The notes below the pieces were generated by a model. It was not told where the DNA came from. It saw only the letters and a list, made by a program, of their open reading frames with translations, and searched no databases. From the IMG/VR virus record IMGVR_UViG_3300009001_003790, positions 1-21,506 of that record: 21,506 bases of DNA. One strand, 5' to 3'. Below, piece by piece: positions 3,038 to 21,488 of the stretch. How positions within the stretch are numbered: the stretch's first letter is position 1; the number at the start of each line of letters is the position of its first letter. The translations under genes and the position numbers were made by a program. Source of the stretch: a virus.

Positions 3038-3113
3038 TGGTACTCGGTGAGAGATTCGAACTCCCGACAAACGCGTTATGAGCACGTGGTTCTAACCGCT
3101 GAACTAACCGAGT
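3038..3113 (-). tRNA. tRNA with CAT anticodon (Ile2 or elongator Met)
   Basis: A complete 76-nt cloverleaf. Acceptor ACTCGGT pairs with ACCGAGT, the D stem is GTTC/GAAC, and the anticodon stem is ACGTG/CGCGT with loop CTCATAA. The T stem is GGGAG/CTCTC with loop TTCGAAT, the discriminator is A, and CCA is encoded. It is not an initiator: the acceptor starts with an A-T pair and the anticodon stem lacks the three G-C pairs. An Ile2 tRNA (C34 changed to lysidine, reading AUA) would suit the many ATA codons in these genes, but elongator Met cannot be excluded by eye. Confidence 0.93.
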
Positions 3114-3118
3114 GTAAT

Positions 3119-3195
3119 TGGCGATTCCGAGAGGATTCGAACCCCTGACCGATTGCTTAGAAGGCAATTGCTCTATCCAGCTGAGCTACGGAACC
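3119..3195 (-). tRNA. tRNA-Arg(TCT)
   Basis: A complete 77-nt cloverleaf with encoded CCA. Acceptor GGTTCCG pairs with CGGAATC (one G-T pair), the D stem is GCTC/GAGC, and the anticodon stem is ATTGC/GCAAT with loop CTTCTAA, giving anticodon TCT. The T stem is AGGGG/CCTCT and the discriminator is G. It reads AGA/AGG, which are common Arg codons in AT-rich phage genes. It lies 5 nt before the CAT tRNA and downstream of gp32. Confidence 0.95.
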
Positions 3196-6633: not shown

Positions 6634-7068
6634 CTAATCCTTTTTCTCATAGAATATATGATTACCAATTACAACATATTCTCTTTTTTCTGATGCCCAA
6701 TCTGGTTCAACATAGTCTGCATGATACCAAAGAGAATATCCTACTAGATTATCAACGCTATCATTTATTACACCCTGGGCTATAAGCAACGAAGTTTCCC
6801 ATGCCATTTTATCGATAGGCTCATCAGACTTTCCATCACAATACCAACTGAATTGACATCGATTTTTTATTGGAATGCGTTTATTTGGATCTGCCCAAGA
6901 CTTTCGGTGATGTCCTTGATAAACAACATCGCACACTTTATCTGGAAAGTGACGAGATTCAACTCTATTCATTACGACTTGAGATACAGCTATCATACCA
7001 CGAACATCTTGATCCCTTGCTTCGTGATATGCATTCAATGCTAAACAAACCAGAGCTTCTGCAAGCAT
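6634..7068 (-). CDS. SleB-type cell-wall hydrolase (endolysin candidate)
   Basis: A 144-aa protein made almost entirely of the Hydrolase_2/SleB fold. LALNAYHEARDQ has the catalytic Glu at E16, followed by IAVSQVVMNRVESRHFPDKVCDVVYQ, RCQFSWYCDG (70-79), LWYHADYVEPDWA (H116) and IGNHIFYEK (H137). SleB-type enzymes cleave peptidoglycan glycan strands as lytic transglycosylases or amidase-like hydrolases. The length is that of a single catalytic domain without a binding domain, and there is no signal peptide, so export would need a holin. ATG 7066-7068 has GAGGAGAGG upstream and overlaps the previous stop (TAATG). Next to it are a small membrane protein and a secreted protein, supporting a lysis role. 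Confidence 0.88.
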   Translation of the reverse strand: MLAEALVCLALNAYHEARDQDVRGMIAVSQVVMNRVESRHFPDKVCDVVYQGHHRKSWADPNKRIPIKNRCQFSWYCDGKSDEPIDKMAWETSLLIAQGVINDSVDNLVGYSLWYHADYVEPDWASEKREYVVIGNHIFYEKKD

Positions 7069-9402: not shown

Positions 9403-10101
9403 TTATGCTTCCGAGACATTCATATTTGGGCGGCCGTCAGGTGCCAAAATTGGCTTTGGCTTAATTACTGGTTTTTTTTCATACACTCGAGCTTCAACGT
9501 TATCACCGTGCTCAACTTTAAACGCGCCATGGATATGGTGTAAAATAAACTTAGTGTTTGGAAATTCTTTCCACATTTCTGTCCATATTGGTCTCCAGAA
9601 ATGCGCTAACCTATTTGTGTTTGTGTTTCCTCTATCTGAAGTAAGAACAAGATCTGAAAAACTACGTAAGTTAAAATCAAAAATAGAGTCAAATCCATAC
9701 ATATGGACTTCATCGGCTTTTAATTTATTCGCACAATAGTGAACAGCCATATGGCCACAATTGAAATTAGTGTATCCCAAACCCTTATTTCCATCTGGCG
9801 GAACAGCATATTCTGGTAGTGTAGTGTAAAATTCTTTTACCTGCTCAGCATGTGATATATAAAACATTGGATGATCTTCCATCCATTTCTTTGGACGAAA
9901 GCCAAGAAGCCACTGACCCGGGACACTAATTTCTTTCCTTGTCATTGCAGCCATAAATTTAAAGTCAACAATTGCTGTGCACCATTTGTCTGGAATCTCA
10001 AATGGTGTTTGATTACATGCGATTTTTAGACCTTTTCTCTGTTCTCTTTGAAATAAACCAGCCCAATCACCGTTTCCAATTACATGCGTAACTCTAGCCA
10101 T
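9403..10101 (-). CDS. DUF115/MptE- or sialyltransferase-like protein (232 aa)
   Basis: The start THVIGNGDWAGLFQRE, the middle CNQTPFEIPD and the block FNCGHMAVHYCANKLKADEV (about 113-132) followed by HMYGFDS resemble the 'NP..GLxAxxxAxxLGAxxIYLxGFD' core of the DUF115/MptE-like and GT29/GT42 sialyltransferase-type folds. A nucleotide-sugar transferase role would suit its place at the end of the glycosyltransferase cluster. It could also be a related non-sugar enzyme. The C-terminus is Pro/Lys-rich (KKPVIKPKPILAPDGRP), perhaps a flexible tail. It overlaps the previous gene by 8 nt. Confidence 0.7.
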   Translation of the reverse strand: MARVTHVIGNGDWAGLFQREQRKGLKIACNQTPFEIPDKWCTAIVDFKFMAAMTRKEISVPGQWLLGFRPKKWMEDHPMFYISHAEQVKEFYTTLPEYAVPPDGNKGLGYTNFNCGHMAVHYCANKLKADEVHMYGFDSIFDFNLRSFSDLVLTSDRGNTNTNRLAHFWRPIWTEMWKEFPNTKFILHHIHGAFKVEHGDNVEARVYEKKPVIKPKPILAPDGRPNMNVSEA

Positions 10102-10750
10102 TCATCATGCTCCGTATACGATCTTTTCCCTTTTTCCCCGTCCAATGAATAATTTTTGCATTTGTCGCTGGCTGATCATCATTTTCAATTTGAAGTCTTA
10201 ACCAGTTATATTCATTTGGTAGTGGTTCTATATATGTCAATCTTCCGAGAGGATCGAGCATGCTCTGCAGCGTTTCTTGATCTCCGACATCTGGATTAGT
10301 CTCAATTTCTTTTACCCATTTATAAAGGATACGAGGCTTGCCAATAAAGCCAACCACGCCTGAGTTATACCATATATCACCGCCGCCACGTCTTTTACTC
10401 CACGGCCTATCTTCGACCATGCCTAGTCTACCTTCGACAAGCTTATCAAAAATACCTTCAATATTACCTCTAACTTCACAATCGGTGTCAAGCCAAACAG
10501 TTTTCTTTGCGGGACAGTGCAGCATTGACTTGGGCTTTTTGAACCAGCCTTGTTCTTTTACCTTTGTCATTGTAATAATTGCATGCACATGTGGTTGAAT
10601 ACTAGAAAGATCATTGACTCCAAAGTCTGCAAAGATAAGAGGTACGGTATTATATTTCTTATAGTTTTCGAAAAACCAAGGGAGCATCCACTCTTGAGTA
10701 TGATCACAACCGGTAAGAAATGCTCTATTAAATAATTTTGTATTGCTCAT
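10094..10750 (-). CDS. GT8-like glycosyltransferase (218 aa)
   Basis: A GT-A type enzyme. VWLDTDCEVRGNI (85-97) has the metal-binding DxD (D88/D90), IWYNSGVVGF is the acceptor-side block, and IIHWTGKKGK near the C-terminus matches the HxxGxxK motif of GT8 glycogenin/LPS-type transferases. It transfers a sugar from a nucleotide donor; donor and acceptor are unknown. It overlaps the upstream gene by 23 nt and the downstream by 8 nt, consistent with one operon. No clear Shine-Dalgarno sequence is seen, so coupling is likely. Confidence 0.8.
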   Translation of the reverse strand: MSNTKLFNRAFLTGCDHTQEWMLPWFFENYKKYNTVPLIFADFGVNDLSSIQPHVHAIITMTKVKEQGWFKKPKSMLHCPAKKTVWLDTDCEVRGNIEGIFDKLVEGRLGMVEDRPWSKRRGGGDIWYNSGVVGFIGKPRILYKWVKEIETNPDVGDQETLQSMLDPLGRLTYIEPLPNEYNWLRLQIENDDQPATNAKIIHWTGKKGKDRIRSMMNG

Positions 10751-11378
10751 TATAATTATGCTTTGCTAAGCATCCTGTTTCATTTTGAATAGTTGTGAAT
10801 GTGTCGACAGCCATACATGCCCATGGGTAGTATTCCTGAAGCCATGGGAAATTGTCGAGGCACATAAAGATGTCTGTAGGACCGCCATGCGTTTTTGCCT
10901 TTTTAATTAATTCTTTTGCTCCGTATGGATTGACAATATATCCGTGAGCACCTCCAAAATATTTCTTTTGGACTAGTCCATCAACTCCAAGTTTCATTGG
11001 AGTGTTAAATTTTCCATATGAAGGTTTAGAAAATGTCATGACACCTTTAAACGGTGCATTCACTGGAACTTCACCAGTTACTATAGCGTCGTGTTCAAAG
11101 ATAACAATATTTTTATTGAGTTTTACAGATCTTTCCCATAGAGCATGGTGAGATAAAAATGCTGACATGCAATTCTCTGGTCGAGAATACTTTTCATGAA
11201 AGAAAGAAGGTTGAATTCCCTTTGTATGAAGAAGCAAATGCGGATTGTCTTTCGGTGTTGTCGCTGGATGGTGCTCTACGTGCAATCCATATTTCTCTGC
11301 AGATTTCATGCATCTCATTCCTGCCTGCACAGATTGCTCGTTATCCATAATTGTAATTACAAAAGCTTCTGTATTCAT
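10728..11378 (-). CDS. GT25-family glycosyltransferase (216 aa)
   Basis: AFVITIMDNEQS at the start, MSAFLSHHALWERSV (71-85), IVIFEHDAIV (91-100, ExD in place of DxD) and FGGAHGYIVNPYGAKELI are the ordered motifs of family 25 transferases, known from LPS synthesis. It is paralogous to the next gene upstream (11375-12070). The ATG overlaps the previous stop (ATGA). Confidence 0.85.
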   Translation of the reverse strand: MNTEAFVITIMDNEQSVQAGMRCMKSAEKYGLHVEHHPATTPKDNPHLLLHTKGIQPSFFHEKYSRPENCMSAFLSHHALWERSVKLNKNIVIFEHDAIVTGEVPVNAPFKGVMTFSKPSYGKFNTPMKLGVDGLVQKKYFGGAHGYIVNPYGAKELIKKAKTHGGPTDIFMCLDNFPWLQEYYPWACMAVDTFTTIQNETGCLAKHNYNEQYKII

Positions 11379-12070
11379 CTTGTTGTAGTACTTTCTATCC
11401 CTTGGATTCCAGTATAATAATGTCTCGTTTGTCCTAATTTAGGAACTAACTGCCTACACATTAAGGCATCATTCGGCCAGCAACCGTGTTCTTTCGTCAA
11501 ATTAATCATATGTTGTGCACCCTCTGGCTTGATATAATAGCTAGAATTACCAGCAATGCCTTGTGGGATATTATGATTATCAATTTCTGGTGCTCTAACT
11601 ATATCATTTGTTGATTCTTGAACTACTCTGTCATAGCCACTCGCTAAACGAGTAGCACGTATAGGAGTATTTAGGCCTATAATATTGTAGCGAGATTCTT
11701 CAAATTTTTCGATAGGTAAATTCTCACTTGAAAAATAAAGTGCATCATGCTCATTAATGATCATGTGTTCATCGTGCTTTACACATCTTTCCCATAGCAT
11801 ATAGTGAGAAAGAAAACAGCCTATTCTTTTTTTAGGCTCTGCTGTAGGATATGCAGTCATGATTAAGCCAGATTTAAAATCAAATTGTTGTCCTTCCCAA
11901 GGCCAAGTCCATTTTAATTTATACTTCTTCATTAGCCGATCTACTTGATCAGGCACGATTGCATCAAATATTACAGGCTTAAGAATCGGTGGCATCGAAA
12001 GAATCAATCGATCAGCAGCACGACTAGATTGTTTATTATCTTTTATTCTTATAACATAAGCGTTAATCAT
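11375..12070 (-). CDS. GT25-family glycosyltransferase (231 aa)
   Basis: AYVIRIKDNKQSSRA, RIGCFLSHYMLWERCVKHDE (82-101), MIINEHDALYF (103-113) and YYIKPEGAQHMI show the same family 25 plan as the neighbour at 10728-11378, and the two are likely an old duplication. The final third (WPNDALMCRQL) holds the usual late acidic motif. The start ATG directly follows the TAA of the FkbM-type gene. Substrates unknown. Confidence 0.85.
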   Translation of the reverse strand: MINAYVIRIKDNKQSSRAADRLILSMPPILKPVIFDAIVPDQVDRLMKKYKLKWTWPWEGQQFDFKSGLIMTAYPTAEPKKRIGCFLSHYMLWERCVKHDEHMIINEHDALYFSSENLPIEKFEESRYNIIGLNTPIRATRLASGYDRVVQESTNDIVRAPEIDNHNIPQGIAGNSSYYIKPEGAQHMINLTKEHGCWPNDALMCRQLVPKLGQTRHYYTGIQGIESTTTR

Positions 12071-12757
12071 TTAAAATCCTAAGTACCGTTCATGGTGTTT
12101 ATTGATTTCTATACTAATATCTTTCCGCATAAAAACAACATCCATTTGGTTGACGATATTCTTTCTCATTGCGATATGGTGAATTCCAGTAGGCACAAAC
12201 CCGTATTCATAAAATGTGCTAATATAGTCACTGAATAACGGTGCACCTTCGTTGTATTTCATAATCCCGACTTCACATATTACACCATAAGCACTTTCAA
12301 ATGTTTCTTTACCGCCGCGTAGAATATCTAATTCTGATCCTTGAGTGTCCATTTTAATAAATTGCGGCAGCGGTAAATCATTCTCTTTTACTAAACTGTC
12401 AAGTGTTTTTGTTTTCAATTCAATTGAATTGCCTAGGCTATAGTTTGGTGTTAATTCTTTATAATATCCATTACCAGTATTTTCTTTTCCGGGATTGGCT
12501 GTGTAGTAAGTAACTGTTTTGTCATCTTCATATGAAAGAACAGCGTTAAAAAATGTTTGATTTTCTGTATTTGGTAATTGGATTTGGGGATTTGCTTCAA
12601 ACATACAAAAATGCGAATGAGGTGGAAACAAATTGGAATGCGCATATTTCCAACGACCATCATTAGCACCGATATCATATACAGTTTTTATGTCATAGTT
12701 ATTTATGCGCAACTGATTGAGGACAACATCGAGTTTGCGATCCATGTTTTCAGGCAT
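12071..12757 (-). CDS. FkbM-family methyltransferase (228 aa)
   Basis: VYDIGANDGRW (27-37) is the SAM-binding loop, FEANP (53-57) the second motif and FIKMDTQGSELDILRGG (about 133-149) the signature of FkbM-type O-methyltransferases. Such enzymes often methylate sugar hydroxyls or the end groups of glycans in polysaccharide clusters. The ATG overlaps the previous stop (TAATG). It is one of three FkbM-like genes interleaved with glycosyltransferases here. Confidence 0.87.
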   Translation of the reverse strand: MPENMDRKLDVVLNQLRINNYDIKTVYDIGANDGRWKYAHSNLFPPHSHFCMFEANPQIQLPNTENQTFFNAVLSYEDDKTVTYYTANPGKENTGNGYYKELTPNYSLGNSIELKTKTLDSLVKENDLPLPQFIKMDTQGSELDILRGGKETFESAYGVICEVGIMKYNEGAPLFSDYISTFYEYGFVPTGIHHIAMRKNIVNQMDVVFMRKDISIEINKHHERYLGF

Positions 12758-13458
12758 TATACGTCTTCTATAATTCCGGCATCCACTAAATCAACATATG
12801 TTTCTTCTCTTGACTTGGGTTTATGCCTAATGTGAATCATATTAGCGCTTTCGAGATTCGGTAAATAACTACTATAATCCCATTTTTCGTCTAGATATGT
12901 ATCCAATTTAAACTTTGCTTTAACACACATAACATGAAACATTCCTTCATCCACGTATGGTCTAGGACTAATCTGCTCAAAGACTTTACGCATAGCTGGA
13001 TTAATTTGTTTACGCATCAGTTGCCTAAACTCTCGAGGCATTACATAAATTGCACCGGACCAGAGTGGATAATCTTTATTTCCTAGTCTCGGAAATTCAC
13101 GAATAAAAGCAGGCAATTGAGTTAAACGATGTACATCATCAAATGATGCAATTCCTTCTGCTTCAAATACATTTTCAGTACAAGAAGTTGTAATAAATTT
13201 ATCTGTGTCAAGAACAACAACAGTATCATATTCATCGTACTCTTCATTGATGCCAGCGCACTTTTGGCATTGACCACGTAGACCTTTTTGGAACGGTTCG
13301 CCATCTAAAAGCTTATATTCAGCACCAAGAGATTCTGCATATCGACTAATATTCTTTACACTTTTTTCTACGATAAAGGGTAAACCATTACGCTCTTTCA
13401 TCTCTTGAATGACTGATGGTCTAAATGGATGGAAGTGCTGCAATATAATATTTTTCAT
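12757..13458 (-). CDS. GT-A type glycosyltransferase, MKNII-Q paralogue 1 (233 aa)
   Basis: MKNIILQHFHPFRPSVIQEM, AESLGAEYKLLDG, YDEYDTVVVLDTDKFI (DxD at 84-86) and WSGAIYVMPREFRQLM give the plan of a GT-A fold similar to GT8/GT32-type enzymes. It is one of four paralogues in the cluster sharing the MKN[I/L]I-Q start, a GAxY strand and Y-x-x-Y-D before DxD. ATG 13456-13458 overlaps the previous stop as ATGA and gives the paralogous N-terminus; an earlier in-frame start nine codons upstream is less likely. Confidence 0.8.
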   Translation of the reverse strand: MKNIILQHFHPFRPSVIQEMKERNGLPFIVEKSVKNISRYAESLGAEYKLLDGEPFQKGLRGQCQKCAGINEEYDEYDTVVVLDTDKFITTSCTENVFEAEGIASFDDVHRLTQLPAFIREFPRLGNKDYPLWSGAIYVMPREFRQLMRKQINPAMRKVFEQISPRPYVDEGMFHVMCVKAKFKLDTYLDEKWDYSSYLPNLESANMIHIRHKPKSREETYVDLVDAGIIEDV

Positions 13459-14105
13459 TTTATTTGATTCTTTCTTCGGCCACAATAATGAATAAGCGTT
13501 GCTTCGGGGTGTGCTTCCTCTGGTAAATCACAAAATCTATCGTGAGGAATTTCTAATTTATTTTTGTTTTCTAGAGCTTTACTTTTTACAATACAATAGT
13601 GCATAATGATCTCATCATTTGGTGGTAAACCATCACTTGACATACTATTATGTATTACTGTGCTATCAAGGGCAGAACGCAGTGCTATACGTTCGTCTCG
13701 AGTAAACTTGAGACAATTACCAAAGAACATTGGCTCACCTTGAGTATACAGCTTAGGCCATTTACGACCATTCTTACTTCCAGATACTTCTCTCATTCCC
13801 ACTTTGTGTAATCTACCAACACCTTCATAATTAAAGATATTGTCAAAATTTTCAGTAAAAAGCATGTCCATATCTAATATTAAGACTGTATCATATTCAT
13901 CATATTTTTCATTTAATACAAACATTTTCTGAATTACGAGCCAGGGTTTGCTGTTAGTATTAGGAAACCAATCACCCATGGGAAATCCTTGAAGCAATTC
14001 ATAATCTGCTCCAACTCTTCGAGCATATTCTTCAATGCTATATTTGCATGTTTTAGCCCATGGTTGAAGCCGACCATTCCAATGTTGTAAGATAATATTT
14101 TTCAC
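13455..14105 (-). CDS. GT-A type glycosyltransferase, MKNII-Q paralogue 2 (216 aa)
   Basis: MKNIILQHWNGRLQPWAKTC, YARRVGADYELLQG, YDEYDTVLILDMDMLF (DxD at 78-80) and MFFGNCLKFTRDERI. It is closely similar at the N-terminus to paralogue 1. The start codon is GTG (14103-14105), overlapping the TAG of the upstream FkbM-like gene (TAGTG); the paralogous MKNII start supports this choice. Donor and acceptor are unknown. Confidence 0.8.
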   Translation of the reverse strand: MKNIILQHWNGRLQPWAKTCKYSIEEYARRVGADYELLQGFPMGDWFPNTNSKPWLVIQKMFVLNEKYDEYDTVLILDMDMLFTENFDNIFNYEGVGRLHKVGMREVSGSKNGRKWPKLYTQGEPMFFGNCLKFTRDERIALRSALDSTVIHNSMSSDGLPPNDEIIMHYCIVKSKALENKNKLEIPHDRFCDLPEEAHPEATLIHYCGRRKNQIK

Positions 14106-14731
14106 TAGTTTAAATCACCGATATTATTAAACATGTTTGGATCTAAATCTTTGTATGCTTTACCAAATAATTCCATATTTCCTTCAACATACCTATCGAA
14201 AAAATTGGTACCCCACTTTTCGTGTAAATTTTCTTTTAAGCTCTTTTCAAGTTCACTCATATCTTCTTTCATTTTATTACCATGAAATTCAACATATATT
14301 TTATTAATTAAGTCACTGCACTTGTTTTCAAGCATAATAGGAAGAATGTCATATTCACTCCCTTCGATATCCATTGTTAGGATAACGTAATCATCTTCAT
14401 TGATATTATCATTAAGCCACCTGCAAACGTCAACACATTCCATTTCTACTATATCGTTTGTAAGTCCTCTTTTTTTATCTTTTCTTGCGGAACCAGACAC
14501 AGTATTTTTTCCAACGTTAAAGGAAATAACACCATCATACGTTCCTGCACATGCTTTAATATGAGTAATATTTGGAACTTGCTCTTTAACTTTTTCTATA
14601 TTTTTAAAGCATCTTTCTTCTGGTTCGAAAGCGTATATAACGAAATCTTCAGAATAAATTTTGGATTTCTGAAGAGCAAGAAACTCAGAACCTTTGTTAG
14701 AACCTAGACTTACGTAAACTTTTCTGCTCAT
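14105..14731 (-). CDS. FkbM-like methyltransferase (208 aa)
   Basis: VSLGSNKGSEF (7-17) stands where the SAM loop DxGxxxG is expected, FEPEERCFKNI (35-45) is the second motif and LTMDIEGSEYDIL (118-130) the FkbM signature (D121, G124, E126). The first motif is unusual in having Ser-Leu instead of Asp-Ile/Val before Gly. SAM binding may therefore be altered. ATG 14729-14731 overlaps the previous stop (ATGA); a GTG three codons earlier is possible. Confidence 0.78.
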   Translation of the reverse strand: MSRKVYVSLGSNKGSEFLALQKSKIYSEDFVIYAFEPEERCFKNIEKVKEQVPNITHIKACAGTYDGVISFNVGKNTVSGSARKDKKRGLTNDIVEMECVDVCRWLNDNINEDDYVILTMDIEGSEYDILPIMLENKCSDLINKIYVEFHGNKMKEDMSELEKSLKENLHEKWGTNFFDRYVEGNMELFGKAYKDLDPNMFNNIGDLN

Positions 14732-15528
14732 AAATTCCACTCATTAACTGGAAGATTTACAATTCGATTAATTTTTTCTTTATCAAAATTGTCAGCACCA
14801 TTCAGTTGGATATGAACAAAGTTGCAATTTTCTTTTCTTAAATCAATGACGGGCCGAGGTTGAGATTTTACGCCTGGATCATAGTGAACAGAACTATTCC
14901 ATTTATATGGCAAAGTTTTCCAACCAAACTTACAAACTTCGAGCATTGCATGAATATATGGTTGATCACATGTATAAAATGATGGCAAATTGAATGCTTT
15001 TGTAAATTTAACATATTTTTCAAAGGGATAGAATTTTTCTCTTGCTTTTTTCATACCATCCTTTGACCATAAAATCATGCCAGAATTGTATACCCTTGGC
15101 AATCCAGATGCTGTGCGAGGCATTGTAACTGGCCACTTTTTTTCGACAAGCTCAACCCACTTCTCATCATTTGCGTTATTAATACCTCCACCGATTGTGT
15201 ATCTTTTTCGAGCTAGTGGCGCATTTACTTCTTCGCAAATACCAACTTCATAATCCTTAATGCTTTCAAATATATTTTCTCCGCAATCATCTCGAGGCAC
15301 TAGATCACAGTCAGCATACATGACATTATCATAATCTTCGTATGCATATACTGGCTTAAACTTTCCGTAGTTAGCTGTATAAGAACCTAGATCAGTCCTC
15401 CATTTTGGATTATGCTCGTATACATATTCGGCGCCAATCTTATCTGCATACTTTTCCATAGCTTCGATACCGGCTAGATTACCAGATCTTTCGTCGCCAT
15501 CCCAGCACTGATAAATTAAATTTTTCAT
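14728..15528 (-). CDS. GT-A type glycosyltransferase, MKNLI-Q paralogue 3 (266 aa)
   Basis: MKNLIYQCWDGDERSGNLAG, YADKIGAEYVYEHN, YEDYDNVMYADCDLVP (DxD at 73-75), then VYNSGMILWSKDGMKKARE (the NSG acceptor block) and CDQPYIHAML. The plan matches the other three paralogues, with a longer C-terminus containing VHYDPGVKSQ. The start overlaps the stop of the FkbM gene (ATGA). Confidence 0.82.
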   Translation of the reverse strand: MKNLIYQCWDGDERSGNLAGIEAMEKYADKIGAEYVYEHNPKWRTDLGSYTANYGKFKPVYAYEDYDNVMYADCDLVPRDDCGENIFESIKDYEVGICEEVNAPLARKRYTIGGGINNANDEKWVELVEKKWPVTMPRTASGLPRVYNSGMILWSKDGMKKAREKFYPFEKYVKFTKAFNLPSFYTCDQPYIHAMLEVCKFGWKTLPYKWNSSVHYDPGVKSQPRPVIDLRKENCNFVHIQLNGADNFDKEKINRIVNLPVNEWNL

Positions 15529-16160
15529 TTTTTATAAAACCAATCTATATCTGTTTTTTCAAATTTCTTAAAGCCCAACTGAGATAAGATATTTGTTATT
15601 TTTGAATCTATTACATTATCTGCTTCAATTTGCAATATCGGAGAATTATTCTTTAATGTTTCTATCATACCTTCTAAAACTGGCGCAGTATATCTTTCAA
15701 CATCGATTTTAATAAAATCTACATTACTAAATTTATAGCTATCTATAGCTTTGCTAATAACTTCTTTAGGTTCTACTACTCCGAATCTCTTACCTTCGCC
15801 CCACCTACTTTTGATTAAAGACTGTGTATCATCATGAACAACTACATTAGATTCTGAATTTTTGCTATTTTCATATATTTGTACTTTACCATCTGTATTT
15901 GATGCTGCTACATTCAATGGAATAATATTTTCAAAATCTTTTGTGTTTTCTTCTAATAGATCATATAGGTATGAAATCGGTTCAAAAGAGTATACCGTAT
16001 CAAATATCTCAGAATATTTAATTGCAGTTGCTCCTATATGAGCTCCGATATCTAAACACACTCGAGTATTTGTCAAATGTGGTGTTATTATTTTTAGCTC
16101 TTTTACACCTTTGCTCTCGGCCCATTCTTTACGATATTGATTATGCGAAGGAAGTTTCAT
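15525..16160 (-). CDS. FkbM-family methyltransferase (211 aa)
   Basis: VCLDIGAHIGATAIKYS (34-50) is the SAM loop, YSFEPISYLY (57-66) the second motif and FIKIDVERYTAPVLEGM (149-165) the FkbM signature with D153 and E155. NVAASNTDGKVQIY between them is the usual post-II strand. Together with the two other FkbM-like genes it suggests several methyl groups on the cluster's product. It starts 4 nt after the sulfoquinovose-synthase-like gene, with GAAGGAAG upstream of the ATG. Confidence 0.87.
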   Translation of the reverse strand: MKLPSHNQYRKEWAESKGVKELKIITPHLTNTRVCLDIGAHIGATAIKYSEIFDTVYSFEPISYLYDLLEENTKDFENIIPLNVAASNTDGKVQIYENSKNSESNVVVHDDTQSLIKSRWGEGKRFGVVEPKEVISKAIDSYKFSNVDFIKIDVERYTAPVLEGMIETLKNNSPILQIEADNVIDSKITNILSQLGFKKFEKTDIDWFYKK

Positions 16161-16164
16161 TATT

Positions 16165-17307
16165 TTACCACTTCGGAGAAGTTAAAATATTCTCAGATTT
16201 TAAATTGTGGGAGTACATATTAGCAATAAAGTGCACGTCATTAACTAAACCAACGTTGAGTTTGATTGGTTCGAACCCCAAAGACCTAAGTCCTTCATTG
16301 CTTACTGCTAAATCATTTTCGGCCAATTCTTTTCGAGGATTATCAATGTATTTGATAACACCGTCATATGATTTAGCACAAAGCTCGGCCAAATCTTTTA
16401 CTGACATAACTTCGGTTACTTGATTGAAGATTCTAACTCTTTCAGTTTCTGGTGGATTTTCGCAAGCTAGCTGAACGCACCGTGCGGTATCTTGAATATG
16501 AATGAATGCTCTTTTCTGACCACCCGTTCCGTATACTGTGATATCATTATTCGTTGCCGCTTGAGAAATGAATCGGTTTAAAACTGTTCCGTAAATTCCA
16601 TCGTAATCAAATCGATTTACGAGTCTTGGATCCAGCTTAGTTTCTTCGGTTTCTATTCCCCAAACAATCCCTTGATGCAAATCGGTAATTTTCAAACCCC
16701 AGTTTTTCTTATAGAACTGAAACAATAATTGATCAATTGATTTTGTCATATGATAAACACTACCGGGATTAGTAGGATAAAGAATATCTACATCCTTTTC
16801 GGTAGAGTTGATCTTTACATTGAGATAACCTTCGGGAATATCACCAAAATCTTTGGAATATCCATACACACCCATTGTACCGAGATGAATTAGATGACAA
16901 TCTGGGCATAGATCAACAATTGCATTAAGAACATTGTGTGTTGTTGTAATATTATTGTCGACAGTGTATCTACGCTCATGTTGACTAATCATAGAATAGG
17001 GTGCTGCTCTTTGTTCAGCAAAGTGTACAATAGCATCTGGCTGTAAATCTTGAACAATTTTAGCAAAATGATAAAAGTCTTTTGCTATATCGACATGCCT
17101 ATAGCTAATATTCCAACCTTGATCATGAGCAGCATGCATTCTTTCATCAATAGAACTAATGTCTGTTAATGAATTGCTATTCAATTCCTTATCGATTTGT
17201 CTACGAGATTGATTATCAATAATGTAGACTTCATGGCCTTCTTTTGCAAGCTTTAAAGATGTTGGCCAACCACAAAAGCCATCACCACCTAATACAAAAA
17301 TTCTCAT
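16165..17307 (-). CDS. sqdB: UDP-sulfoquinovose synthase-like SDR enzyme (SqdB/SQD1)
   Basis: A 380-aa extended short-chain dehydrogenase/reductase. The NAD loop is LGGDGFCGWPTSL (6-18). FAEQRAAPYSM (96-106), TVDNNITTTHNVL, YPTNPGSVYHMTKS (177-190), DLHQGIVWGIETEETKLDPR (209-228), NRFDYDGIYGTVLNRF (231-246) and GTGGQKRAFIHIQDTARC (260-277) follow the SqdB/SQD1 pattern over its whole length. Catalytic T144, Y185 and K189 match the Thr-Tyr-Lys set of Arabidopsis SQD1. SqdB makes UDP-sulfoquinovose from UDP-glucose and sulfite for sulfolipid (SQDG). No sulfolipid synthase (SqdX/SQD2) is obvious next to it, and it lies inside a glycosyltransferase cluster, so a glycan use is possible. The ATG overlaps the stop of the 37-aa gene. 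Confidence 0.93.
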   Translation of the reverse strand: MRIFVLGGDGFCGWPTSLKLAKEGHEVYIIDNQSRRQIDKELNSNSLTDISSIDERMHAAHDQGWNISYRHVDIAKDFYHFAKIVQDLQPDAIVHFAEQRAAPYSMISQHERRYTVDNNITTTHNVLNAIVDLCPDCHLIHLGTMGVYGYSKDFGDIPEGYLNVKINSTEKDVDILYPTNPGSVYHMTKSIDQLLFQFYKKNWGLKITDLHQGIVWGIETEETKLDPRLVNRFDYDGIYGTVLNRFISQAATNNDITVYGTGGQKRAFIHIQDTARCVQLACENPPETERVRIFNQVTEVMSVKDLAELCAKSYDGVIKYIDNPRKELAENDLAVSNEGLRSLGFEPIKLNVGLVNDVHFIANMYSHNLKSENILTSPKW

Positions 17308-17420: not shown

Positions 17421-17726
17421 TTATCCTAAAGTCTCTATATCATAAAACATCTCACCTAACTCTGACCAATCGCCTTTCCAATTTTTTGGCTTCTTTTGAA
17501 AAACAACCATAGCTCTATATGTAGGAATTTTTTCAGCAATACAATGCATTGTTGGACCTTTGTCATGATTTTGGTTAATCTTTAAATTTTTTGCATCTTT
17601 TGGGTATATGAGTTTGTTGCTTTCATCGTGCACAACAAAAGTACATTCGCCATGTTTATATACAAGCGGTAACCAATAGTGGTGAAATCGTTTTTGGTCT
17701 CCATTATATTTCAGTGTTATTACCAC
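17421..17726 (-). CDS. Hypothetical protein (101 aa)
   Basis: MVITLKYNGDQKRFHHYWLP, FVVHDESNKLIYPKDAKNLK and PTYRAMVVFQKKPKNWKGDW, a small protein rich in aromatic and beta-type segments. No family is recognised. The start is GTG (17724-17726) overlapping the TAA of the upstream methyltransferase, with GAGG about 10 nt before it; there is no other start before residue 59. Its place between a methyltransferase and the sulfoquinovose-synthase-like gene suggests a cluster-related role, but nothing more can be said. Confidence 0.68.
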   Translation of the reverse strand: MVITLKYNGDQKRFHHYWLPLVYKHGECTFVVHDESNKLIYPKDAKNLKINQNHDKGPTMHCIAEKIPTYRAMVVFQKKPKNWKGDWSELGEMFYDIETLG

Positions 17727-18334
17727 GGTTTTTGTGCCTCTACTACTGCACTATGCAATGCTCTGATTTTACCCTGACTATCTATACCTCTAAAATCTGC
17801 AACTCGGCTTTGTTGATACACGTGGTCTCTAGCCATAATAAAACCAAGGCCTTTAAGAGTACCAATAAGTTCATTCTTTCCCCAAACATAGAGATGTTCA
17901 CCATTTTGATATAGAAGCCCTTGCGCGCATTGTATTCGAATTGGCTTGTCTTCGTAACCCGGCGGACAAAACTTATGCTTTAAAACATAAAAATTATGGT
18001 AATGTGCACAGAAATATTCCTCATCTGCAGTTAGTTGCTCATCAGATAAAAGTTTATCGACAAATTCGTGTGGGGGCCAAATCGTGCGGATTGTACCACC
18101 CGGCTTAAGTACTCTATACATTTCTTTAAGAAAATCGATTCCTTCACTCTTGTGAAGATGCTCAATAAAGTGCTCCGAATAAACACCATCATAAGTATTA
18201 TCCGAAATACCTTTCATAGGAAGGTTGCGCATATCGTATTTTTCTACGCCTTTTTCAGGATCTGCAACATCACGCACAGCATCCCAGTTGAGGCCTCTTT
18301 TAAATCCAGCTGCAATTTCGAGATATTTTGCCAT
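17720..18334 (-). CDS. Class I SAM-dependent methyltransferase (204 aa)
   Basis: LEIAAGFKRGLNWDAV stands at the SAM-loop position, and VEKYDMRNLPM, YDGVYSEHFIEHLHKSEG (48-65) and LKEMYRVLKPGGTIRTIWPP (69-88) are the post-I to post-III motifs of the methyltransferase type 11 group. Such enzymes appear in sugar and LPS clusters. The N-terminus looks slightly trimmed, with the first motif starting at residue 5. It overlaps the upstream glycosyltransferase by 35 nt. GGGAATG lies just before ATG 18332-18334. Confidence 0.85.
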   Translation of the reverse strand: MAKYLEIAAGFKRGLNWDAVRDVADPEKGVEKYDMRNLPMKGISDNTYDGVYSEHFIEHLHKSEGIDFLKEMYRVLKPGGTIRTIWPPHEFVDKLLSDEQLTADEEYFCAHYHNFYVLKHKFCPPGYEDKPIRIQCAQGLLYQNGEHLYVWGKNELIGTLKGLGFIMARDHVYQQSRVADFRGIDSQGKIRALHSAVVEAQKPW

Positions 18335-19091
18335 TTTTCATTCCCTTCCATATTTGAGGCATATTGAATTTATCTCTTGCAAGATAATGATTAATTCTAC
18401 CATCGGGTAAATTACCGCTTCCCCACTGGTATGGCATTCTATTCCAATGCGTATCAAACTCAAAAACTTTAAATTCTGGTTGACTTAGCTGGAGATTAAT
18501 ATACATTTGTTCAGTATATCTCGTATGCACTACATAATTATCGACAGAAGTAAAGATTTCACGAGCTTTTTCTCGGCCGTGTTTAGTCCATAATTGAAGG
18601 CCACCATTGAGATATCGAAATCTTTCTTCTGGATAAAGCTTTGACTTAGGAAACATCCAGTCTTTACCAAATAAATGTTTACCGTACGCAATGATACCAC
18701 GTTGATAAATTTGTTTGTCCATTACGTTGCGCATCCATCCGGCCGGTGGACCAGTATGAACACCAAGCTCATGCACCATTGCTACATCAGCATCTTGTTC
18801 AAAGCTTTCGAAGATATTGTAAGGAGTGGCGACTAACATGTCAAGATCCAGTGTGAGGATATTGTCATATTGTTCGAATTGTTGATCGTAGAAGAGTCTT
18901 AAAGAATCAAGGCGAGGATCTAAATGATCGAAGTATCTATCATGACTTAGAATATATTCTGCGCCGCAGTGCTTAGCATACTTCTGAGCGTTTTCGGATC
19001 CCGCCTTTGCCCAATCTGGCATTTCAACACCGCCTAAGTCAGCATCGAAAGATTCGTACGGAATGTAGTATTGGAATATTAAGTTTTTCAT
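18300..19091 (-). CDS. GT-A type glycosyltransferase, MKNLI-Q paralogue 4 (263 aa)
   Basis: MKNLIFQYYIPYESFDADLG, YAKHCGAEYILSHDRYFDH, FEQYDNILTLDLDMLVATPY (DxD at 82-84), FRYLNGGLQLWTKHGREKA and YTEQMYINLQL. It is the most divergent of the four paralogues but keeps the same block order. It is the first gene of the glycan cluster after the EF-hand membrane protein; the 16-nt gap between them is the largest break inside the block. No own promoter is seen. Confidence 0.82.
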   Translation of the reverse strand: MKNLIFQYYIPYESFDADLGGVEMPDWAKAGSENAQKYAKHCGAEYILSHDRYFDHLDPRLDSLRLFYDQQFEQYDNILTLDLDMLVATPYNIFESFEQDADVAMVHELGVHTGPPAGWMRNVMDKQIYQRGIIAYGKHLFGKDWMFPKSKLYPEERFRYLNGGLQLWTKHGREKAREIFTSVDNYVVHTRYTEQMYINLQLSQPEFKVFEFDTHWNRMPYQWGSGNLPDGRINHYLARDKFNMPQIWKGMKNGKISRNCSWI

Positions 19092-20762: not shown

Positions 20763-20774
20763 CTTACGTTTTTT
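20763..20774 (-). repeat. Post-stop motif AAAAAACGTAAG, copy 3
   Basis: Minus-strand AAAAAACGTAAG overlaps the stop codon of the nuclease gene by two bases. Confidence 0.6.
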
Positions 20775-21450
20775 ATCCATGAAACATCTTACGCCTATTA
20801 TATTCATCACGAGTTTCGATCATTTTATCGATCCAAGCATCTCGTGTTTCCTTGTACATGACTGGATGAAAGTCATCTACATCCATAACAATTCGTGTTT
20901 GTTGGACAGCCATACCGGTACGTTCTTCCCACATGACAGCATATGCAGCTAGTTGCATAAAGTAGTTACCAATATTTGCTTTTTTCTTAGGACGTCGAGA
21001 AGTCTTCCAATCAACGATTGTAGGTACACCATCCCATTCGCAAATACAATCACATGTACCGGCTAGTTGTAAATGGTCAGAATACAATGGAACTTCTTGC
21101 CCATAGATTTTAGTGACATGCTTATCAAGCAGTGGACGAAGATTCTCGAGAGATTGAACGACGTGCGGAAGAAATTCGTTGCGACATTCGGGTTCATTCC
21201 TTAAATATTTTTCGATTAGTGAATGTACTTGAGTACCACGATTAGCAGCACGTTGACCGATACGGTTGGCTTCTTCTTCACCTACTCGTTTACGCCATTT
21301 TGCAATTGATTCTTCACTTAAGATACTAAGAACAGTAGTAACACTAGGATAGGCATTACCATCCAGGGTAAGATATCTCCTTCCGTCAGGACTATCTGTT
21401 CGATCCAAGCTTTCATATCCCATATCAATTTTTTCATGGATAAACTCCAT
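20773..21450 (-). CDS. PD-(D/E)XK exonuclease-like protein (225 aa)
   Basis: NRGTQVHSLIEKYL (70-83, H76), GQEVPLYSDHLQLAGTCDCI (117-136, with D134), PTIVDWKTSRRPKK (143-156, D147 and K149) and YFMQLAAYAVMWEERTG (163-179) are the ordered motifs of Cas4/RecB-like PD-(D/E)XK nucleases. Such phage proteins act as exonucleases in recombination, replication or host DNA breakdown. The size is that of a single nuclease domain, without iron-sulfur cysteines. ATG 21448-21450 is favoured because GGAA lies about 6 nt upstream; three neighbouring in-frame starts (ATG 21453, ATG 21456, TTG 21462) are possible. Confidence 0.87.
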   Translation of the reverse strand: MEFIHEKIDMGYESLDRTDSPDGRRYLTLDGNAYPSVTTVLSILSEESIAKWRKRVGEEEANRIGQRAANRGTQVHSLIEKYLRNEPECRNEFLPHVVQSLENLRPLLDKHVTKIYGQEVPLYSDHLQLAGTCDCICEWDGVPTIVDWKTSRRPKKKANIGNYFMQLAAYAVMWEERTGMAVQQTRIVMDVDDFHPVMYKETRDAWIDKMIETRDEYNRRKMFHG

Positions 21451-21488
21451 CATCATTTCCAATCGTTGTTTTATTAAATAATAGTATT

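Follow-up and report, generated by a model that had tools for sequence, protein, structure and literature searches.

A predicted UDP-sulfoquinovose synthase linked to a glycosyltransferase island in T4-like phages

The stretch of DNA analysed here, called the window, is the 21,506-nucleotide (21.5 kb) virus record IMGVR_UViG_3300009001_003790 of a T4-like phage. Within it lies a gene, sqdB, whose product is very probably a UDP-sulfoquinovose synthase, and which in related phages is usually accompanied by a narrow group of glycosyltransferases (GTs) encoded just downstream. A lipid of photosynthetic membranes has sulfoquinovose as its head group, and archaea use the sugar in N-glycans. The position of sqdB in a block with several GT genes suggests that its product probably serves to decorate a surface sugar, a protein or the phage's own DNA, and not a membrane lipid. 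Phage-made UDP-sulfoquinovose would probably feed a glycan built by the island, through a GT-A enzyme encoded downstream and with a surface polysaccharide or lipopolysaccharide, or a virion protein, as acceptor.

T4-type markers in the window are recognized by phrog profiles for a baseplate hub protein (phrog_150), gp32 (phrog_224) and an exonuclease (phrog_298), all on the same record as sqdB. The nearest relatives of the window gp32 are those of Phage C48C1 (60%), OM43 phage Melnitz (55.6%) and cyanophages (53%). Adjoining gp32 is a pair of genes for tRNA-Met and tRNA-Arg (window 3038-3195); the tRNA-Arg gene has copies at 90-95% identity in 46 phage records, for the most part from enterobacterial phages. 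A cell wall hydrolase (PF07486) encoded at 6634-7068 is perhaps a lysis enzyme. Cellular contamination is ruled out for the window by the T4-type core genes on the same record and by the all-viral clade in which its SqdB is found.

Table 1. Features of the sqdB region of the window
Feature	Coordinates	Strand	Evidence
Phage exonuclease flanking the island; used as independent anchor	20773..21462	-	phrog_298, E 6.2e-70
Putative GT-A glycosyltransferase at island start, not tied to sqdB	18300..19091	-	Clusters with 14728; no Pfam match
SAM methyltransferase	17720..18334	-	PF08241, E 3.4e-8
Small ORF upstream of sqdB	17421..17726	-	No Pfam match
Predicted UDP-sulfoquinovose synthase (SqdB), 380 aa, ATG start	16165..17307	-	NCBIfam, SQD1 match, fold, fingerprint, tree
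FkbM-family methyltransferase, starts 4 nt past the sqdB stop	15525..16160	-	PF05050, E 1.2e-13
GT-A glycosyltransferase (alignment A5), best candidate sulfoquinovosyltransferase	14728..15528	-	PF01501 under cut-off; model; sqdB linkage
FkbM-family methyltransferase	14105..14740	-	PF05050, E 2.3e-11
Putative GT-A glycosyltransferase (A6 family), sqdB-linked	13455..14105	-	A6-A5 profile match 98%; PF01501, E 0.037, under cut-off
Putative GT-A glycosyltransferase (A6 family), sqdB-linked	12757..13461	-	Same cluster as 13455; no Pfam match
FkbM-family methyltransferase	12071..12757	-	PF05050, E 9.1e-16
GT25-family glycosyltransferase	11375..12070	-	PF01755, E 1.6e-14
GT25-family glycosyltransferase	10728..11378	-	PF01755, E 2.3e-10
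Putative GT-A glycosyltransferase, island core	10094..10750	-	PF01501, E 0.0043, under cut-off; in 31/35 sqdB-less islands
Conserved island-end protein	9403..10101	-	No Pfam match; in 30/35 sqdB-less islands

The sqdB reading frame lies where the first-pass annotation had placed it, but on the minus strand; the plus strand over the same interval is full of stops. A match to SqdB/SQD1 along the whole length, claimed in the same annotation, is borne out by the alignment of SQD1 (1qrr) over residues 2-380 (295 bits, E 6.5e-87), in which the proposed catalytic residues T144, Y185 and K189 align with SQD1 T145, Y182 and K186. The NCBIfam model for UDP-sulfoquinovose synthase, NF041015, matches with E 6.2e-104 over positions 1-350 of 384; the score of 348 bits is below the curated equivalog cut-off of 575 bits, which is an NCBI naming rule and not a functional feature, and which four other proteins also fail to reach, three of them from viral records (350-363 bits) and one from a Clostridiales MAG (497 bits). 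An AlphaFold2 model of the protein (mean pLDDT 88.7) superimposes on SQD1 with a Z of 55.4 and 1.9 A over 374 residues, and the best structure other than SQD1 is GalE, with a Z of 34.0. The NCBIfam E-value, the SQD1 match and the gap between these two Z-scores rule out a chance match or a misannotated generic epimerase, and the SqdB assignment is far above chance. Taken with the fingerprint residues considered below, the profile, alignment and predicted fold make the window protein very probably a UDP-sulfoquinovose synthase.

A first scan of IMG/VR gave 16 related loci and an alignment-based scan 113 relatives, 80 of which were kept; IMG/VR contigs with SqdB relatives thus number at least 80. 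A collection of 50,697 phage records held no more than distant SqdB matches in any record. Among isolate phages 61 records matched, and the 60 listed showed 23-27% identity and are mostly annotated as other nucleotide-sugar enzymes. In a tree of 73 rows, which leaves out proteins shorter than 340 aa and 14 identical rows and in which plant SQD1 alone stands for the cyanobacterial side, the window protein falls in a clade (P1) of 37 distinct rows, all viral, with support of 99/97. A second clade (P2) has 17 rows, mostly viral (94/92), and proteins of the sqdBDC type group with one viral contig, L081, at 100/100. Together with a Rhodococcus plasmid protein these form one 60-row group (97/94) apart from SQD1, the Clostridiales MAG and Pseudonocardia, with no settled branching order among the four within the 73-row tree. 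The neighbours of the window protein are thus proteobacterial SqdB proteins, that of Sinorhizobium meliloti among them, rather than another epimerase clade, in agreement with its first assignment. Eight more viral rows lie outside the 60-row group, near the canonical types represented by SQD1, the Clostridiales MAG and Pseudonocardia. By their positions in the tree, L081 and the viral rows near SQD1 and Pseudonocardia may be contigs of cellular origin.

The nearest cellular relatives, found by tblastn against plasmids, include sqdB genes paired with a GT gene in S. meliloti, Marinovum, Palleronia and Loktanella (53-56% identity). The operon genes are annotated in their records as epimerase, glycosyltransferase and oxidoreductase, and we take these gene sets to be sqdBDC-type operons (sqdB, sqdD, sqdC). 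In S. meliloti the sqdB gene is required for sulfolipid. One of the records, L037 (CP090106.1), is labelled S. meliloti pSymB; its size of 3.7 Mb and its ruvAB, ftsH and tol-pal genes suggest a chromosome under the name of a plasmid. Plasmid proteins of Rhodobacteraceae M382 and Pelagovum (marine Rhodobacterales) nest inside the viral clade P2, which suggests exchange of sqdB between phages and plasmids.

The cluster of glycosyltransferase genes described in the first-pass annotation is a run of same-strand genes that includes sqdB (Table 1; genes are referred to below by their first coordinate). It comprises two GT25 enzymes, three methyltransferases of the FkbM family and a number of putative GT-A enzymes that match GT8 weakly or not at all. 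The same island is found without sqdB in 35 related phage loci, all of which were fetched with GT 18300 as anchor and chosen for having the 10094 or the 9403 gene. Because the island occurs without sqdB in many related phages, sqdB is an optional cassette. Locus L123, whose exonuclease is 92% identical to that of the window and which has 10 kb of sequence downstream, lacks sqdB, whereas L278 (exonuclease 92%) and L284 (90%) carry it, a distribution that suggests exchange of the cassette among related phages.

Several counts indicate which transferase accompanies sqdB; they are not independent, as the loci are related and some are duplicates. The gene directly after sqdB, present in 36 P1 loci, encodes a GT of the A5 or A6 type in 21, an FkbM enzyme in 11 and another protein in 4, and in 33 loci mechanical ORF calls place its start no more than 10 nt from the sqdB stop. 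Eight of the 11 loci in which FkbM comes first, the window included, have an A5-type GT gene in second place. Every one of the 15 untruncated loci retrieved with GT 13455 as sole anchor at an identity of at least 47%, near-identical contigs among them, has SqdB, as do 4 of the remaining 63; L192 and L200, whose contigs end before the sqdB position, were excluded from the linkage counts. With the exonuclease as anchor, 40 of 80 loci could be used (39 with less than 4.5 kb downstream and L304 being excluded), and 4 of these 40 have SqdB. The three SqdB loci with an intact island score 483-518 bits for A5; none of the 36 loci without sqdB exceeds 317, and 23 of these lack any A5-family gene.

A further comparison set 27 of the 37 P1 loci (at least 2.5 kb downstream) against 51 sqdB-less loci with at least 5 kb past GT 18300, drawn from a series of 77 in which L114 has SqdB. 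At a loose A5 threshold of at least 200 bits there is no difference (21/27 with sqdB, 40/51 without; Fisher p 1.0). The narrow A5 group, at 400 bits or more, a threshold picked after the data had been seen, is found in 14/27 loci with sqdB and in 2/51 without. Exceptions are L132 and L156, which have narrow GTs and lack sqdB. It thus appears that the narrow GT group just downstream usually travels with sqdB. GT 18300 is dismissed as the linked transferase because it is present at 50% identity or more in only 6 of 33 loci with sqdB; it is found in 35/35 sqdB-less islands, a set retrieved by way of this same gene.

The model of GT 14728 (pLDDT 87.7) has a GT-A fold. VIA-align puts the PBCV-1 capsid glycosyltransferase nearest to it (Z 16.5, 3.4 A, 191 residues), ahead of WbbM, UGGT, glycogenin and LgtC at Z 14-15; the GT-A neighbours, several of them GT8-like, span Z 13-16. 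Foldseek places UGGT at the top with TM-scores near 0.5, and such likeness of fold says nothing about substrate. Given its linkage to sqdB, GT 14728 is the best candidate for a sulfoquinovosyltransferase.

In the proposed mechanism, phage SqdB would turn UDP-glucose and sulfite of the presumed host into UDP-sulfoquinovose, and the sugar would be moved to an acceptor by a GT-A enzyme encoded downstream, either that at 14728-15528 or its relatives at 13455-14105 and 12757-13461. The island as a whole would assemble the glycan that holds the acceptor, and its FkbM enzymes would methylate that glycan. The acceptor would most likely be a host surface polysaccharide or lipopolysaccharide, or a virion protein, rather than diacylglycerol. 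PAPS reductase was found in 0/17 and 0/16 viral records (one record belongs to both sets), and two plasmid records were positive. Phage-made sulfite is rejected on this absence from the viral records searched, for which UDP-glucose and sulfite are most likely supplied by the host. One locus, L065, has a HAD phosphatase domain fused to a nucleotidyltransferase (L065:5672-7018) 3 kb upstream of sqdB, a fusion that may supply UDP-glucose, and L063 also has a nucleotidyltransferase match. A link to cyanophage photosynthesis is not supported, the psbA family (PF00124) being present in 0/16 records. A large viral SqdB lineage under purifying selection and tied to particular GTs would imply that phages produce a sulfonated sugar for purposes of their own: changing the host surface (to keep out superinfecting phages, for instance), decorating virions or masking DNA. 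The island also yields candidate sulfoquinovosyltransferases outside the SqdX and SqdD families.

In proteobacteria sulfolipid synthesis probably relies on the GT8-type enzyme SqdD in place of SqdX. The first-pass argument, which named only SqdX/SQD2, has a gap here, and the search had to be extended to SqdD. The sqdB gene might be an auxiliary metabolic gene with which the phage boosts host SQDG, the lipid being completed by a host lipid transferase or by a GT8-like enzyme of the phage; we consider this unlikely. It is consistent with the cellular sqdB-GT pairs among the nearest relatives, and with a strong A5-type GT directly next to sqdB, the place of SqdD in cellular operons, in 10/36 P1 loci. 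GT 14728 itself scores 22.3 bits against PF01501 (GT8), under the cut-off of 24.3, and 8/18 A5 members match weakly at E 0.1. The SqdD profile, however, has no significant match in the window, 36 P1 loci, 15 P2 loci, L081 (whose contig ends just past sqdB) or any of the four long P1 records (141-153 kb), the best being a GT of L060 at E 0.0045; its four positive control loci, the same that built the profile, score at least 545 bits. The host may have an SqdD of its own. By hhalign, A5 matches SqdD with a probability of 2%, a weak test with shallow profiles, and A6 with 68% (E 5e-5) but over just 59 columns around the DxD motif. The first-pass annotation had seen no SqdX-like transferase nearby, and indeed SqdX-type GT4 (PF00534) is found in 0/9 P1 records, the window and eight others, mostly fragments; among P2 records it is present in 5/8, in four over the cut-off. 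The location of sqdB amid GT25 and FkbM genes also speaks against the lipid.

The lack of SqdD-, SqdX- and PAPS reductase-like genes in the window's clade favours a glycoconjugate over sulfolipid, and a non-lipid glycoconjugate is the most likely target on this gene content. The first annotation's preference for a glycan donor is thus favoured by the missing lipid transferases in P1 and by the linked GTs, and falls short of proof. Its caveat that a divergent lipid transferase might hide among the GT-A enzymes applies in part: some neighbours are weakly GT8-like, which keeps the lipid alive at low probability, but none in P1 matches SqdD significantly.

Quite improbable, in our estimate, is a route in which the SqdB product and a linked GT (a TAGT enzyme in P2, an unrecognised GT-A in P1) hypermodify hydroxymethylated bases of phage DNA, sulfoquinovose on 5-hydroxymethylcytosine giving a sulfonated, anionic and restriction-resistant DNA. 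In the P2 phages L084 and L088 a gene of the TAGT family (PF20691), which is connected with glucosylated hydroxymethylcytosine in DNA, directly follows sqdB (pairs at L084:535-2522 and L088:9983-11939), with a second TAGT gene shortly after in L088 (12753-13637), and that of L084 also matches phrog_842, a beta-glucosyl-HMC-alpha-glucosyltransferase. TAGT likely adds the second glucose on T6-type DNA, according to the available text of one report (PMC13390438). Only 2/11 P2 records (those of L084 and L088) have TAGT over the cut-off, and PF20691 is absent from the window (G000) and from 7/8 other P1 records; the exception, G023, is the only one of the nine with TAGT, about 47 kb from sqdB. A dCMP hydroxymethylase resembling T4 gp42 is found in two of the four P1 records of 141-153 kb, G001 and G019, next to a dCMP deaminase (L355:1441-2352 and L357:1453-2130, respectively). 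The matched stretch in G019 holds one TAA, and that of G001 keeps the Asp of the FGxxNDYAW stretch, which presumably marks hydroxymethylases. The P1 records G020 and G021, however, have sqdB and lack the hydroxymethylase, and gp56, gp1 and T4 beta-glucosyltransferase are unmatched in all four records, in a search that found the gp41 control in 4/4. A Tet/JBP search, uninformative by itself, gave no match. PF00303 matches occur in the P2 records G032, G033 and G034. GT25 and FkbM enzymes are better suited to a surface glycan, and DNA as target is a possibility with more support in P2 than in P1, to which the window belongs.

The fingerprint of UDP-sulfoquinovose synthases is listed as [ST]MG...Yx3K, also [ST]MGxnYx3K, in the accessible part of its source (PMC8987622), and is present in the window SqdB as T144-M145-G146, Y185 and K189. 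For Agl3 of Sulfolobus acidocaldarius, the available text reports that alanine mutants of H95, R101, M145, Y182 and K186 are inactive, that T144A is fully active while E147A keeps 12.4% and Y148A 15%, and that UDP-glucose-5,6-ene is formed without sulfite (PMC4388408). Mapped by motif and not by alignment of the Agl3 sequence itself, the essential residues are all kept in the window protein (H95, R100, M145, Y185 and K189), as is Y148; the loss of key residues named at the outset as evidence against SqdB is not seen. Agl3 Glu147 corresponds to Val147, and its occurrence in the SqdB proteins of S. meliloti, Marinovum, Palleronia and Loktanella marks this Val as a trait of the proteobacterial-type lineage, not decay. 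Values of dN/dS between the window SqdB and its two nearest relatives are 0.014 and 0.017, at a dS of 0.39; of 13 pairs compared, 11 gave a usable ratio above zero, from 0.014 up to 0.143. The sqdB lineage is judged from these values to be under purifying selection. The phage SqdB is of proteobacterial type and very probably active.

It is very unlikely that the enzyme has drifted to a UDP-glucose 5,6-dehydratase working without sulfite, or to the addition of another nucleophile. The NF041015 score under the cut-off, the change from Glu147 to Val and the sulfite-free product of Agl3 would fit such drift, as would the replacement of the fingerprint Met145 by Thr or Ala in eight P2 members (L082, L083, L085, L087, L089, L092, L093 and L095), where a changed reaction is possible. 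Against it, GTMGVYG and the YHxTK box are kept in all 37 P1 rows and Val147 is shared with S. meliloti SqdB.

Among known systems, the SqdB proteins of S. meliloti, Marinovum, Palleronia and Loktanella, encoded beside a GT8-type gene, share with the phage protein full-length identity in the range given above, the GTMGVYG variant and the larger clade; what sets the phage gene apart is the lack of a detected SqdD-like partner and its place in a glycosyltransferase island. Plant SQD1 (PDB 1qrr, 1i24) shares the fold, the catalytic triad and the Met-Gly, but identity is about 40% and the Glu of its GTMGEYG is a Val in the phage. The full-text literature search returned one viral UDP-sulfoquinovose synthase only, a putative enzyme of a Mu-like virus from euxinic water at 900 m in the Cariaco Basin (PMC7785012), other papers being judged by title and the start of the abstract. 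Its authors read it as serving N-glycosylation, and the part of that paper available describes no GT linkage (PMC7785012). A viral SqdB lineage that appears coupled to a glycosyltransferase cassette is absent from the literature searched. The plasmid clusters of Rhodobacteraceae M382 and Pelagovum likewise have sqdB with glycosyltransferase genes nearby (L035:12001-15764 and L039:12001-13907), and their proteins nest in P2; unlike the viral records searched, they include a nearby PAPS reductase, a possible source of sulfite. The archaeal Agl3, compared here by motif and gene context rather than by sequence alignment, is also encoded near genes for GTs and sugar enzymes and, in the text available, feeds the S-layer N-glycan (PMC4388408), and it offers a precedent for a UDP-sulfoquinovose synthase that would supply a glycan and not a lipid.
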